Source of the DNA: Sphingorhabdus sp. M41
GTDB taxonomy: Bacteria > Pseudomonadota > Alphaproteobacteria > Sphingomonadales > Sphingomonadaceae
DNA: 64,000 bases
Reading direction: 5' to 3'
NCBI RefSeq assembly: GCF_001586275.1
Contig: NZ_CP014545.1
Span: 1,328,501 to 1,392,500 of the forward strand
How positions within the stretch are numbered: the first letter of the stretch is position 1; the number at the start of each line of letters is the position of its first letter. Positions 38,228 through 63,087 of the stretch are shown here, one piece after another. The position numbers were made by a program, and so were the translations under genes. The notes under the pieces are model-generated. The model worked only from the letters and a program-made list of their open reading frames with translations. It did no database searches and was not told the DNA's origin.

Positions 38228-40096
38228 CTACACTGCATCGTCGATCTGGGTCAGTTCGACCAATCGCTCATGAAATAACTGCTTCGCTTCGCGAAGGCGC
38301 TGCTGCTCGGCATAACTTTCTTCCGTAAGATCGTCCTGCACTCGCCTCGTTGCCTCTGCCAGAGCCGCTTCCAATCCGGGGCGCGCCGTCACCACTTTTA
38401 TCGCTTCTGCCAAATCCCGATGCGCCCGTTCGATCAAAAGCGAAGGGGCATCGTCTGGCAGCTTGCGGTTGAAAGTGAAATTCAGCGCGTCGGCCCGTAA
38501 CAGCCCTTTTGCGACATTATAACAATCTGTCTTCTCCAATATGGTAAGAAGGCCGTGCATATCAAGCGTTTCTTTGCGCATTGCCGCATTGATCAATTCG
38601 CTGAGCAATAGCTGTAACTGCGAATCGGCAAGCTTGATCGCGCTGAGTTCTTCAAAATGCCCGGATATCCGGCAGGGATGACGGATCAGGCCACCCAAAA
38701 TGCCCTTGGCAATCTGCAGATCATAGCCCTCGATCAAAAAGGTCTTGGTGTCCTCCAGCGGTTTGTAAGAGACGAATTTCGATGGGAATTTGCGATTATT
38801 ATTCTGCTGGCGCCTGGCTTCGGGGCGACTATCCCGCTGGGCAAAAAAGGCGGCTTGATAGCGTTCGTCAAAAGCCTGCCGGTAATGCCGGGCAATATCC
38901 TGATCGGCGATATCGCGCACATGGTCGGACAGACGCTTTTTCAGGCCGGCCTTGGTTTCCGGTGTGTTGAGCGGCTCGGCGTCATATTCCACCTGCCAGA
39001 TCTTGTCGTCGAGCATCTGCGGCCTGGCGATCAGGGCGGCAAAGGCATGAGCGCCGTCGGAGCGGATCAGGTCATCGGGGTCCTGTCCCGCGGGCAGGGA
39101 AATGAAGTTCAGGCTGTGCGAGGGGCGCAATATCGGCAGCGCTCGCAAGGCGGCGCGCATGGCAGCTTTCTGACCCGCATTGTCGCCGTCAAAGCAGAGT
39201 ATCGGTGCCTCGACCATTTTCCAGATACGTTCGATCTGATGTTCGGTCAGCGCGGTGCCGAGCGGGGCGACGACGTCGTTGAACCCGGCCTGCGCCAAGG
39301 CGATGGCGTCCATATAGCCTTCTACCACCAAGATCCGGCCGGTCTGGCGGGAAGCGGGAGAGGCCTTGTCGAGATTGTAGAGCGTGCGGCCCTTGTCGAA
39401 CAACGGCGTGTCGGGGGAGTTGAGATATTTCGGCTCGCCGTCACCCAATATCCGGCCGCCAAAAGCAATGACCCGGCCGCGTGGGTCGCGGATCGGGATC
39501 ATCAGGCGGCCGCGGAACCGGTCATAGGGCTCCTTGTCATCGACCTTGATCAGCAGGCCGGCCTCGATCAGCTGGTCCATGCCGTGTCTGGACAGCGCGT
39601 CCTTGAGCCTTCCGCGGGAATTGGGAGCGAAACCAAAGCCGAACTCGCGGATCGTGTTTTCCGATATGCCGCGATTTTTCAGATATTCCCGTGCCCCAGC
39701 GCCCTCGGTGCTGTTGAATTGCTCGACAAACCAGTCCTGCGCCGCGGCCATAACGTCATGCAGGGTTGCCCGCACCTCCTGCCGCTGCGCCGCGCGGGGA
39801 TCGGGGGCAGGGACTTCCATCTGCGCCTCGGCGGCGAGGTCCTTGACCGCGTCCATGAAGCCCAGCCCGCGCTGTTCGGTCATCCAGCTGATCGCGTCAC
39901 CATGGGCGCCGCAGCCGAAGCAATGGTAGAAGCCCTTTTCGTCATTGATCGTGAAGCTGGGCGATTTCTCGTTATGAAAGGGGCAGCAGGCCTTATATTC
40001 GCGACCGGCCTTCTGGATCTTTACGGTGCGCCCGATCAGCGTCGACAGGGTGACGCGCGATCGCAGTTCTTCGAGCCATTGCGGGGTGAGGGTCAT
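38228..40096 (-). CDS. dnaG: DNA primase DnaG
   Basis: A 622-residue primase that synthesises RNA primers at the replication fork. The N-terminal zinc-binding domain has C38-x2-H41 and C59-x2-C62 (in CPFHNEKSPSF and FYHCFGCGAHGD). The Toprim catalytic region is seen in RILVVEGYMDAIALAQAG and ILCFDGDNAGQKAA. The C-terminal DnaB-binding domain is divergent. Its ATG overlaps the stop of the upstream GIY-YIG gene (ATGA). A palindromic repeat ends 13 bases upstream of the start, so initiation signals for dnaG lie within inserted DNA. Confidence 0.96.
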   Translation of the reverse strand: MTLTPQWLEELRSRVTLSTLIGRTVKIQKAGREYKACCPFHNEKSPSFTINDEKGFYHCFGCGAHGDAISWMTEQRGLGFMDAVKDLAAEAQMEVPAPDPRAAQRQEVRATLHDVMAAAQDWFVEQFNSTEGAGAREYLKNRGISENTIREFGFGFAPNSRGRLKDALSRHGMDQLIEAGLLIKVDDKEPYDRFRGRLMIPIRDPRGRVIAFGGRILGDGEPKYLNSPDTPLFDKGRTLYNLDKASPASRQTGRILVVEGYMDAIALAQAGFNDVVAPLGTALTEHQIERIWKMVEAPILCFDGDNAGQKAAMRAALRALPILRPSHSLNFISLPAGQDPDDLIRSDGAHAFAALIARPQMLDDKIWQVEYDAEPLNTPETKAGLKKRLSDHVRDIADQDIARHYRQAFDERYQAAFFAQRDSRPEARRQQNNNRKFPSKFVSYKPLEDTKTFLIEGYDLQIAKGILGGLIRHPCRISGHFEELSAIKLADSQLQLLLSELINAAMRKETLDMHGLLTILEKTDCYNVAKGLLRADALNFTFNRKLPDDAPSLLIERAHRDLAEAIKVVTARPGLEAALAEATRRVQDDLTEESYAEQQRLREAKQLFHERLVELTQIDDAV

Positions 40097-40467
40097 TCTG
40101 AAATCTCGGTGTCTCGACTACGCTCGACACGAACGGCGTTTTGGGCGCCGCTCTCTCCGTTCGTCTCGAGCGAAGTCGAGAGACGTTCTGTCGGAGGCTT
40201 CGCAAAATAGGACAATTTTTTCCAGTCACCTGCGATTAGAGCGCGCTTTTTGGCTTGGGACCATTTCTTGACTGTTAATTCGGCTGACAAAGCCTCTTCT
40301 CGAGTCGGGAAAGACTCCGACCACACCAATTCTATTGGTCGGCGCTGGCTCGTAAACTTACAATATCCACCGCTGCCATGTTCAGCCACCCGGCGTTCCA
40401 AATCATCCGTGTGACCGGTGTAGAACTTACCATCTGCACATAACAGCATGTAGGTCCAAAAGGCCAA
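40093..40467 (-). CDS. GIY-YIG nuclease-domain protein with a repeat-encoded tail
   Basis: A 124-residue single-domain GIY-YIG protein (UPF0213/YhbQ-like). The core has TYMLLCADGKFYTGHT (GIY and YIG strands, here YML and YTG), the catalytic-type arginine helix LERRVAEH and the glutamate in EALSAELTVKKW. The normal family end comes at IAGDWKKLSYFAK. The following 34 or so residues, including RLSTSLETNGE and VRVERSRDTEI, are translated from two inverted palindromic repeats. It sits between yqeY and dnaG in an otherwise standard operon, and its stop overlaps the dnaG start. A third repeat copy lies just upstream of its start. It looks like a mobile unit; nuclease activity is not proven. Confidence 0.85.
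   Translation of the reverse strand: MAFWTYMLLCADGKFYTGHTDDLERRVAEHGSGGYCKFTSQRRPIELVWSESFPTREEALSAELTVKKWSQAKKRALIAGDWKKLSYFAKPPTERLSTSLETNGESGAQNAVRVERSRDTEISE
40109..40136 (+). repeat. Palindromic repeat, copy 1 (forward)
   Basis: A 28-base element beginning GTGTCTCGAC and ending CTCGACACGAACGG, with internal TCGA dyad symmetry. It matches copy 3 at all but one position. It encodes part of the GIY-YIG protein tail on the minus strand, and its left end lies 13 bases from the dnaG start codon. Confidence 0.85.
40157..40185 (-). repeat. Palindromic repeat, copy 2 (inverted)
   Basis: Begins CCGTTCGTCTCGAG and is close to the reverse complement of copy 1, so copies 1 and 2 form an inverted pair around a 20-base spacer. 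CCGTTCGT pairs with ACGAACGG of copy 1. This paired arrangement is like REPIN/BIME elements, which fold as a long hairpin when single-stranded. Confidence 0.85.
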
Positions 40468-40482
40468 TTACGCTTCTCCCGG

Positions 40483-40510
40483 GTGTCTCGACTTCGCTCG
40501 ACACGAACGG
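40483..40510 (+). repeat. Palindromic repeat, copy 3, with a degenerate neighbour
   Basis: A 28-base copy in the same orientation as copy 1, 15 bases upstream of the GIY-YIG start codon. A decayed copy (AAGTCGCTCGATACGAACA, 40517-40535 region) follows it. With copies 1 and 2 it brackets the GIY-YIG gene. Confidence 0.85.
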
Positions 40511-40547
40511 ACAGAAGTCGCTCGATACGAACAACCTGTATTCAGTG

Positions 40548-41000
40548 TCACGAAAGCGCCGCCTTCACCAGTGCGCTGGCCTTGCTCATGTCGATTTCGG
40601 TGCCGTGGCGTTTCTTCAGTTCGCCCATCACGCGGCCCATGTCCTTCATGCCGTCGGCGCCGAGTTCGGTCTTGATACCATCGATCAGGGCAGCGGTTTC
40701 TTCCTCGTTCAATTGCGCCGGGAGAAATTCCTCGATCACCGCCAGTTCCAGTTTTTCCGCTGCGGCGAGCTCGGTGCGGCCACCGGATTCGAACATGTCG
40801 ATCGATTCGCGGCGCTGCTTGGCCATTTTTTGCAGCACGTCGATCAGGATCGCATCATCGTCGCGCGCATCTTCCTTGGTGCGCAGTTCGATGTCCTTGT
40901 CCTTGATCTTCGCCAATATGCTGCGGGTCGCGGCGGTGCGATCCTTGTCACCGGCCTTCATGGCGGCAATTTGCGCGGCTTTCACGGTGTCGCGAATCAT
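40548..41000 (-). CDS. GatB/YqeY domain protein
   Basis: A 150-residue helical protein of the YqeY family, homologous to the tRNA-binding tail domain of GatB. Family features are the N-terminal MIRDTVKAAQIAAMKAGDK, RTAATRSILAKIKDKDIE, and the C-terminal GMKDMGRVMGELKKRHG. ATG 41000 is favoured because GAGG lies six bases upstream and it gives the usual family N-terminus; ATGs at 41012 and 41036 are alternatives. The function is poorly defined. In alphaproteobacteria it typically precedes dnaG; here the GIY-YIG unit separates them. Confidence 0.88.
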   Translation of the reverse strand: MIRDTVKAAQIAAMKAGDKDRTAATRSILAKIKDKDIELRTKEDARDDDAILIDVLQKMAKQRRESIDMFESGGRTELAAAEKLELAVIEEFLPAQLNEEETAALIDGIKTELGADGMKDMGRVMGELKKRHGTEIDMSKASALVKAALS

Positions 41001-41067
41001 GGCGTCCCTCATATTTTTGGAGTAAGCGACCACCATAGCGGGAAGATAATTTTTTTCATAGATTGTG

Positions 41068-62992: not shown

Positions 62993-63016
62993 CAGCTTTC
63001 CCCTCGATATTATTCT

Positions 63017-63042
63017 CGTTCGTGCGGAGCCTGTCGACGCAC
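63017..63042 (-). repeat. Palindromic repeat (second family), copy a, inverted
   Basis: Begins CGTTCGTGCGGAG and continues to TGTCGACGCAC. It is an imperfect reverse complement of copy b, 18 bases away, with about five mismatches in 26. It lies between the TauD-like start and the gyrA end. Confidence 0.75.
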
Positions 63043-63060
63043 CTCTTTCTGGTGGGAGGC

Positions 63061-63087
63061 GTCCTTCGACAAGCTCAGGACGAACGG
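63061..63087 (+). repeat. Palindromic repeat (second family), copy b, forward
   Basis: GTCCTTCGACAAGC followed by TCAGGACGAACGG, with GTCCT/AGGAC symmetry inside. It ends 7 bases from the gyrA stop codon. With copy a it can form a long hairpin. The GACGAACGG end is shared with the family near dnaG, suggesting related elements. Confidence 0.75.

Follow-up and report, generated by a model that had tools for sequence, protein, structure and literature searches.

GIY-YIG gene and REP-A repeats between yqeY and dnaG

The window analysed here is a stretch of 64,000 nucleotides from Sphingorhabdus sp. M41 (contig NZ_CP014545.1, positions 1,328,501 to 1,392,500). It carries, between yqeY and dnaG, the gene of a small single-domain GIY-YIG nuclease, which is bracketed by copies of a short repeat of the repetitive extragenic palindromic (REP) type, termed REP-A. 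The relation between this gene, its homologues and their repeats is the subject of this study. The features of the locus are as follows, in window coordinates.

40093..40467, minus strand: gene for a 124-aa single-domain GIY-YIG nuclease (PF01541 match), with TTG as its start codon
40096..40197, minus strand: 34-residue C-terminal tail of the GIY-YIG open reading frame (ORF), for the most part encoded by the two REP-A copies on the dnaG side
40482..40510, plus strand: REP-A copy upstream of the GIY-YIG gene, with its tag CCGTTC directed away from the gene
40157..40184, minus strand: REP-A copy downstream of the GIY-YIG domain, with its tag directed away from the gene
40108..40136, plus strand: third REP-A copy, adjoining dnaG and forming an inverted pair with 40157-40184
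about 40512..40532, no strand given: degenerate fragment of REP-A, read by eye, in the interval separating the upstream copy from yqeY
40548..41036, minus strand: yqeY (PF09424), the upstream neighbour of the GIY-YIG gene
38228..40096, minus strand: dnaG (TIGR01391)

A first-pass annotation of the window had described a single-domain GIY-YIG gene with at least three repeat copies at this place, and had ascribed about 34 C-terminal residues to two inverted copies and noted a stop codon overlapping the start of dnaG. Both descriptions were confirmed. The GIY-YIG domain covers residues 3-74 of the protein (E 4.4e-18), and PF01541 is its only Pfam match. The stop codon (40095-40093) overlaps the dnaG ATG (40096-40094) as ATGA. 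A change in dnaG output caused by the insertion, which the annotation had suggested, would be conjecture. The copies at 40482-40510 and 40157-40184 frame the domain in a tags-outward layout. The REP-A copies at the locus are 91-97% alike in two comparisons. Across the genome, 43 sites were found within 3 mismatches, against none for the reversed pattern. Three copies within 800 bp of one gene have a Poisson P of 1.8e-7 against the genome-wide background, or of 1.7e-4 when intergenic DNA, assumed to make up 10%, is taken to hold every copy.

The same annotation had called the repeat a 28-base palindrome. It is indeed a repeat, but a single copy of 28-29 nt is an imperfect palindrome that folds no better than shuffled sequences (z 0.18 to 0.67), and the idea that each REP-A copy is a self-standing stable hairpin was rejected on these values. 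The inverted pair (40108-40136 with 40157-40184) folds into one long hairpin (z –5.75). No match to a known RNA family was obtained from Rfam for 12 loci at the gathering threshold.

Purifying selection acts on the GIY-YIG domain, whose dN/dS in comparisons with four relatives is about 0.08-0.11. The tail encoded by the repeats is less constrained (dN 0.13-0.15 and dS 0.24 against two relatives, over a short stretch). Among 113 relatives, the motif positions are conserved as Y in 111 and 113, G in 113, R in 113, H in 113 and E in 112, which we take to be the catalytic positions of GIY-YIG. The nearest named relative found belongs to Parasphingorhabdus flavimaris (88% identity), and in L006-L009, the closest four loci among the named genomes, this gene again sits between yqeY and dnaG. 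Relatives at E 1e-5 occur in 36 plasmid records, all below 60% identity. The closest solved structures are the UPF0213-type proteins BH0048 (PDB 1zg2, E 1.3e-16) and EF2693 (PDB 1ywl, E 2.2e-15), both named hypothetical. The protein has no match in NCBIfam up to E 0.001, and PADLOC and PHROG, searched for anti-phage defence or phage origin, gave none up to the same value.

Repeat families, protein groups and cassette layout

The window genome (3.34 Mb) contains five PF01541 matches, one of which is UvrC. Each of the other four genes is flanked on both sides, within 400 bp, by one repeat family, and the family is different for each gene. These are REP-A (2 and 1 copies on the two sides), REP-B (CCTTCGACAAGCTCAGGACGAACGG; 2 and 3), REP-C (CGTCATTGCGAG...GCAATCCAG; 1 and 2) and REP-D (TGCTCCGCACTTGATGCGGAGC; 2 and 2). 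None of the four genes has copies of the other three families within 400 bp. A 3.2-kb stretch around UvrC contains no copy of any of these families, and a comparison of the sequences flanking its GIY-YIG domain revealed nothing notable in common (scores 9 and 11). By pattern search the genome holds 43 copies of REP-A, 109 of REP-B, 15 of REP-C and 27 of REP-D. Backward-pattern controls gave 0 in this genome and, over 149 genomes of the same bacterial family, single matches in two genomes each for REP-B and REP-D.

Two further observations concern these families. REP-D, the near-perfect palindrome at gene L004 (G000:C1:2382912-2383372), is a young, genus-level family with 27 copies here, 21 in one congener and at most seven in each other genome of the 149. 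An inverted pair of REP-B lies in the window at 63016-63087, about 22 kb from the window's only PF01541 match.

The bracketing extends to relatives in other genomes. A protein-based scan of named genomes gave 68 loci, and 66 were used (L059 and L068 were omitted at contig edges). In 59 of the 66, a repeat common to the upstream and downstream flanks (350 bp each) scores no lower than the 99th percentile of controls, that percentile being 21.6 over 1980 windows taken from these 66 loci and not from the 113 family genes described below. The seven loci under the threshold are L025, L031, L035, L036, L055, L063 and L070. The scan loci span Sphingomonadales, a gammaproteobacterium (L021), a Pseudolabrys metagenome-assembled genome (MAG; L039), many Bacteroidota and a Fibrobacteria MAG (L043). 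The flank repeats differ between loci, yet many end in a CCGT- or CGTC-like manner when read by eye. In L041-L069, mostly from Bacteroidota, the GIY-YIG genes lie mostly between long direct repeats (alignment scores up to about 181) that carry TTCGAG...TATCGAGAA elements, often after CGTCA, in a layout unlike the inverted pairs of sphingomonads.

A second set was taken from the 149 family genomes, with loci picked by domain score alone. It comprised 306 single-domain matches, of which 113 were examined (the 4 of this genome, 29 further loci and the next 80 by E-value) and 193 left aside; L119, L161 and L164 lie in frames with one stop. The flank-sharing score was at least 19 in 94 of the 113 and at least 22, a level reached by less than 1% of control windows, in 87.

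The 113 domains fall into group I (54) and group II (59), separated by a branch with full support in the Shimodaira-Hasegawa-like approximate likelihood ratio test (SH-aLRT 100), and the two groups have different repeats. Perfect hairpins tagged CGTC, TGTC or CCTC lie within 300 bp of 40 of the 59 group II genes and of none of the 54 in group I; the pattern requires a perfect stem of at least 7 bp, and the 19 other group II genes are unmatched under this strict definition. Conversely, within the same distance REP-A occurs at 17 and REP-B at 24 of the 54 group I genes, and both are absent from all 59 genes of group II. The first-pass annotation had asked whether repeats are more frequent near GIY-YIG genes than near other genes. 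Close to GIY-YIG genes they are far denser than at a distance: CGTC hairpins reach 2.40 per kb at group II genes, compared with 0.044 per kb beyond 700 bp. Group II repeats are typified by CGTCATTCCCGCGCAGGCGGGAATCCAG and CGTCATGCTGAACTTGTTTCAGCATCCAT, and two CGTC-tagged copies fold singly (z –4.6 and –4.1).

The repeats also match the enzyme clades at a finer level. One repeat label was assigned to 94 of the 113 loci, none to 18 and two to one locus; label G is a loose motif, by which the group I locus L095 was probably labelled by chance. The labels require 23 changes on the protein tree, with unlabelled loci counted as a state of their own, against a mean of 67.1 after shuffling, and none of 200 shuffles was as low. 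Among the 94 single-label loci there are 10 label changes. The tree was built on 91 columns and 56 of its 110 inner branches are open.

When loci were grouped by similar neighbouring ORFs, label B was found in 19 contexts (29 loci), G in 17 (30 loci), T in 11 (17 loci) and A in 2 (18 loci). The same repeat therefore accompanies GIY-YIG genes at different sites, as the 29 B-labelled loci in 19 contexts illustrate. The REP-A-labelled gene sits mostly at two old sites, yqeY-dnaG and glyA-trmJ. In one group of 18 loci (between L075 and L122) that share a context, the GIY-YIG frame stands beside the serine hydroxymethyltransferase gene. In L076, L079, L081 and L085 the frame stays open through a partly repeat-like linker into a SpoU-family (TrmJ-like) methyltransferase, as seen by Pfam for L079 only, and a fused GIY-YIG/TrmJ-like protein may be made in this context. 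As the repeats insert their own sequence into operons (dnaG, trmJ), important gene products can have their ends and linkers remodelled by the system.

Cassettes and dispersed repeats have a common layout. Among 19 REP-A pairs less than 100 bp apart in the window genome, 18 are inverted with tags outward by hand count, the lone exception being the pair on the dnaG side of the window gene. A matching repeat stands on both sides of the gene in 57 of the 94 single-label loci, and in 45 of these 57 both nearest copies point their tags outward, where one in four would be expected with random orientation. Counted by side, outward against inward tags number 55 to 13 upstream and 54 to 10 downstream. 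Because both share the tags-outward layout, a dispersed repeat pair looks like a cassette minus its gene.

Slot occupancy and repeat copy number

The yqeY-dnaG slot was surveyed in 140 of the 148 yqeY-bearing family genomes (G097, G127, G117, G039, G115, G057, G043 and G072 were left out). dnaG adjoins yqeY in 134 of the 140, and in 6 it was not found next door. Of the 134 genomes, 17 (15 genera) have a GIY-YIG gene in the slot, as do 21 of the 68 loci from the named-genome scan. The first-pass annotation had read the gene as an insertion; a recent insertion was rejected because the position is common to 15 genera. The copy at yqeY-dnaG is of long standing and is retained patchily. Close relatives do not all carry it here. 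Two genomes of the same genus lack the gene at the slot, G083 with 19 REP-A copies and G141 with none, beside 43 in the window genome (G000).

REP-A, within 4 mismatches, was present in all 17 occupied gaps. It was absent from all 117 gaps without a GIY-YIG gene, even though 13 of these genomes have at least 10 copies elsewhere. The genome-wide REP-A median is 43 with the slot occupied and 0 with it unoccupied (p 1.5e-10), and at least 10 copies are held by 13 of the 17 occupied and 13 of the 117 unoccupied genomes. In comparisons within a genus, REP-A was higher with the gene in 12 of 13, with one tie (0-0); ten of these genera are informative (sign test, p 0.002).

By estimate, 41 of the 117 unoccupied gaps are shorter than 60 bp, and the cassette is therefore an insertion relative to those genomes. 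In unoccupied G088 (L279), a 56-bp gap keeps what appears to be the first half of the slot repeat of its congeners G001 and G145, perhaps as the scar of a deletion. Short junctions beside occupied ones, together with this probable remnant, would suit a selfish GIY-YIG gene whose product cleaves unoccupied sites so that repair copies the gene into them, with the repeats as its ends or recognition site and the dispersed copies as failed or degenerate products. GIY-YIG is a classic homing-nuclease fold, and free-standing GIY-YIG homing endonucleases share this catalytic fold and are stand-alone genes that may move. However, under homing one would expect a single target to hold the gene many times over and repeats without the gene to be scarce, whereas gene-less repeat pairs outnumber genes here (43 REP-A sites and one REP-A-flanked gene among the four). 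The homing target is also conjectural in the present case. We regard an element of this type as quite improbable.

Another explanation is that the nuclease has been domesticated and cuts or trims repeat structures, such as cruciforms and lagging-strand hairpins, for upkeep or gene control, so that the repeats are kept as useful and are not spread by it. The purifying selection on the domain and the long-kept sites yqeY-dnaG and glyA-trmJ are in its favour. Models of REPIN persistence also favour a benefit to the host (PMC8049555). By itself, however, such a role does not explain the tags-outward layout common to cassettes and dispersed pairs, the presence of similar genes in many contexts (19, 17 and 11 for labels B, G and T) or the abrupt rise, among some congeners, from 0 copies in one to dozens in another. 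It is therefore unlikely in our judgement, though the best placed of the alternatives.

Over the 149 genomes, the total of the four repeat families tracks the presence of the gene, a relation that the first-pass annotation had put forward for checking. The number of single-domain genes was taken as the PF01541 matches minus one per genome for UvrC, without a genome-by-genome check, and it correlates with the repeat total (rho 0.61, p 1.3e-16). The median is 0 repeats in the 42 gene-less genomes and 13 in the 107 with a gene, of which 58 hold at least 10. The dependence is largely specific to the family of the matching gene. The REP-A median is 37.5 where an A-flanked gene is present (18 genomes) and 0 in the 89 other GIY-YIG genomes (p 1.6e-9), and that of REP-B is 27.5 in 26 genomes with a B-flanked gene against 1 in 81 (p 1.5e-6). 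REP-A is not raised by B-, G- or T-flanked genes (p 0.27, 0.73 and 0.91). Repeats elsewhere in the genome thus depend on the gene.

Could another enzyme, a REP-associated tyrosine transposase (RAYT) or an insertion sequence, spread the repeats while the GIY-YIG gene just sits in repeat-rich intergenic DNA? REPs are mostly intergenic, and the genomes bearing a Y1 (RAYT-type) transposase do hold more repeats (median 24 against 3, p 0.006). However, PF01797, the Y1 family, has no match in the window genome. Among the 62 repeat-rich genomes the Y1 transposase occurs in 13 and a single-domain GIY-YIG in 58. The 117 gene-less yqeY-dnaG gaps free of REP-A, 13 of them in genomes with at least 10 copies, also tell against a bystander, and clade-matched repeats would not be expected from one. 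RAYT as the driver was rejected, as PF01797 is found in 24 of the 149 genomes and the association holds in the 125 without it (rho 0.60). A bystander gene is in our view the least probable of the explanations considered.

Several results weigh against a partnership of gene and repeat, the larger number of repeats in Y1-bearing genomes and the poor folding of single REP-A copies among them. Phylogeny was only partly controlled, and near-copies inflate the clustering of labels on the tree. At the slot, 4 of the 17 occupied genomes hold fewer than 10 REP-A copies, and in G114 the slot has one REP-A site only and label B, in a genome without REP-A copies in the count. In the family at large, 4 of the 42 gene-less genomes, G119 among them, still hold at least 10 repeats. 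REP-B is also higher with a G-flanked gene (26 against 2, p 0.0023), the strongest off-diagonal link, and with an A-flanked gene (24 against 2, p 0.028). With the four families summed, contrasts within a genus went up in 28 cases, down in 10 and tied in 6. Thirteen genomes with at least 3 genes, such as G066 and G090, have fewer than 10 copies of the four families; these may carry families outside the four. G119 has 115 repeats (78 REP-B and 37 REP-C) and PF01541 matches not beyond one, and is a candidate for recent enzyme loss. No movement of the repeats was seen.

The support is weaker across the class than within the bacterial family. In a set of 193 genomes of the window's class, searched with one CGTC pattern, CGTC copies and extra GIY-YIG genes were weakly correlated (rho 0.30). 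At least 10 copies were found in 15 of 98 genomes with the gene and also in 4 of 95 without it (Fisher p 0.014). A score of at least 22 for repeats common to both flanks was reached by 11 of the 27 best-scoring new class loci (four of the 27 are cut at contig edges), and CGTC hairpins lie near 4 (0.43 per kb against 0.116 farther off). Therefore, not every single-domain GIY-YIG gene is of the repeat-paired kind.

The proposed nuclease-repeat system and its relation to known systems

The repeat-bracketed genes and the far larger number of matching repeats in gene carriers make the single-domain GIY-YIG nuclease a strong candidate for the partner of this class of mini-repeats. On balance we favour the view that the gene is probably the dedicated nuclease of its REP family, in a two-part system like RAYT-REPIN with a different enzyme. 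The first-pass annotation had proposed a GIY-YIG partner in place of a RAYT. The sequence tests agree with the pairing, and we infer that the nuclease mobilises the repeats. In such a mechanism, the enzyme would recognise the tag and the hairpin formed by the repeat pair in single-stranded or cruciform DNA and would nick at the tag, which is CCGTTC here and CGTC in the sister group. The repeat pair might then be duplicated or relocated elsewhere in the genome, the joining being left to repair or replication by the host. To our knowledge, GIY-YIG enzymes do not form a covalent DNA intermediate. Cassettes with the gene would represent the complete but infrequent form, and dispersed pairs would be derivatives that lack the gene. 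The REP-A gene would stay mostly at its two old sites while REP-A repeats spread.

RAYT-REPIN systems, or REPtrons, are reportedly also the subject of the work of Nunvar in 2010 (PMC2817692). The account of Bertels and Rainey (2011, PMC3116915) describes REPINs as inverted REP doublets related to RAYTs. The likeness to the present case consists in a gene between its own REPs, dispersal as inverted pairs and repeats matched to enzyme clades. In contrast, the enzyme here is a GIY-YIG nuclease and not a Y1/HUH tyrosine transposase, the tags are CCGTTC or CGTC and not GTAG, and transposition would be our reading of the distribution. The present system differs from homing endonucleases in its many gene-less repeat copies.

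The CGTC-tagged REPs offer a second comparison. By Di Nocera, De Gregorio and Rocco (2013, PMC3733652) they are presented as apparently without a dedicated transposase, in a superfamily that includes dRS3 of Neisseria and RPE-4/RPE-6 of Rickettsia. The group II repeats resemble them in the CGTC/TGTC tag with a hairpin, and the listed group II examples mostly have a stem starting with AT, a loop of 4-5 nt and a CCA-like tail. REP-A, on the other hand, is a related but distinct class with a CCGTTC tag and an imperfect stem. The word GIY is absent from PMC3733652. In the parts at hand of two papers citing it, GIY does not appear in PMC6006769, and neither RAYT, nuclease, transposase nor GIY-YIG appears in PMC12306157 (2025). 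Judged by title and the start of the abstract among the matches listed, no literature linking GIY-YIG genes to REPs was found, with most subscription journals and bioRxiv uncovered. Two of the listed papers, PMC10928387 and PMC7318869, each contain GIY-YIG, palindromic and a word starting with rayt a single time.

As the 2013 paper left the mover of CGTC-tagged REPs open, GIY-YIG becomes a concrete candidate with a clade-by-clade match. If this is true, no fewer than two unrelated families of enzymes gave rise to REP-type repeat populations, and common small proteins annotated merely as 'GIY-YIG nuclease family protein' would gain a function. A wider proposal is more tentative, and we hold it at somewhat less than even chances. 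Single-domain GIY-YIG enzymes would be a second, phylum-crossing class that spreads REPs with a chemistry unlike that of RAYTs, which would account for the CGTC superfamily and the related Bacteroidota repeats, and DUF559 with a CCCTCCC palindrome would be a third, parallel class. If true, a nuclease plus a palindrome would be a general route to the persistence of mini-repeats in bacteria.

The DUF559 genes were met in the same slot. They occupy 13 of the 117 gaps without GIY-YIG (for example L187, L191, L229, L266 and L288), as detected by a hidden Markov model built from three of those same proteins, and two were confirmed as PF04480. Literature on DUF559 with palindromic, judged by title and abstract start, gave nothing related. 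A CCCTCCC...GGGAGGG palindrome stands on both sides of the DUF559 gene in 11 of the 13, a count made without a chance control; it occurs once in L210, and in L216 the pattern has no match. It may be a second system that pairs a nuclease with a repeat. In four genera, one species carries GIY-YIG with REP-A while a different species carries DUF559 (G120/G048, G037/G113, G138/G076 and G106/G026).

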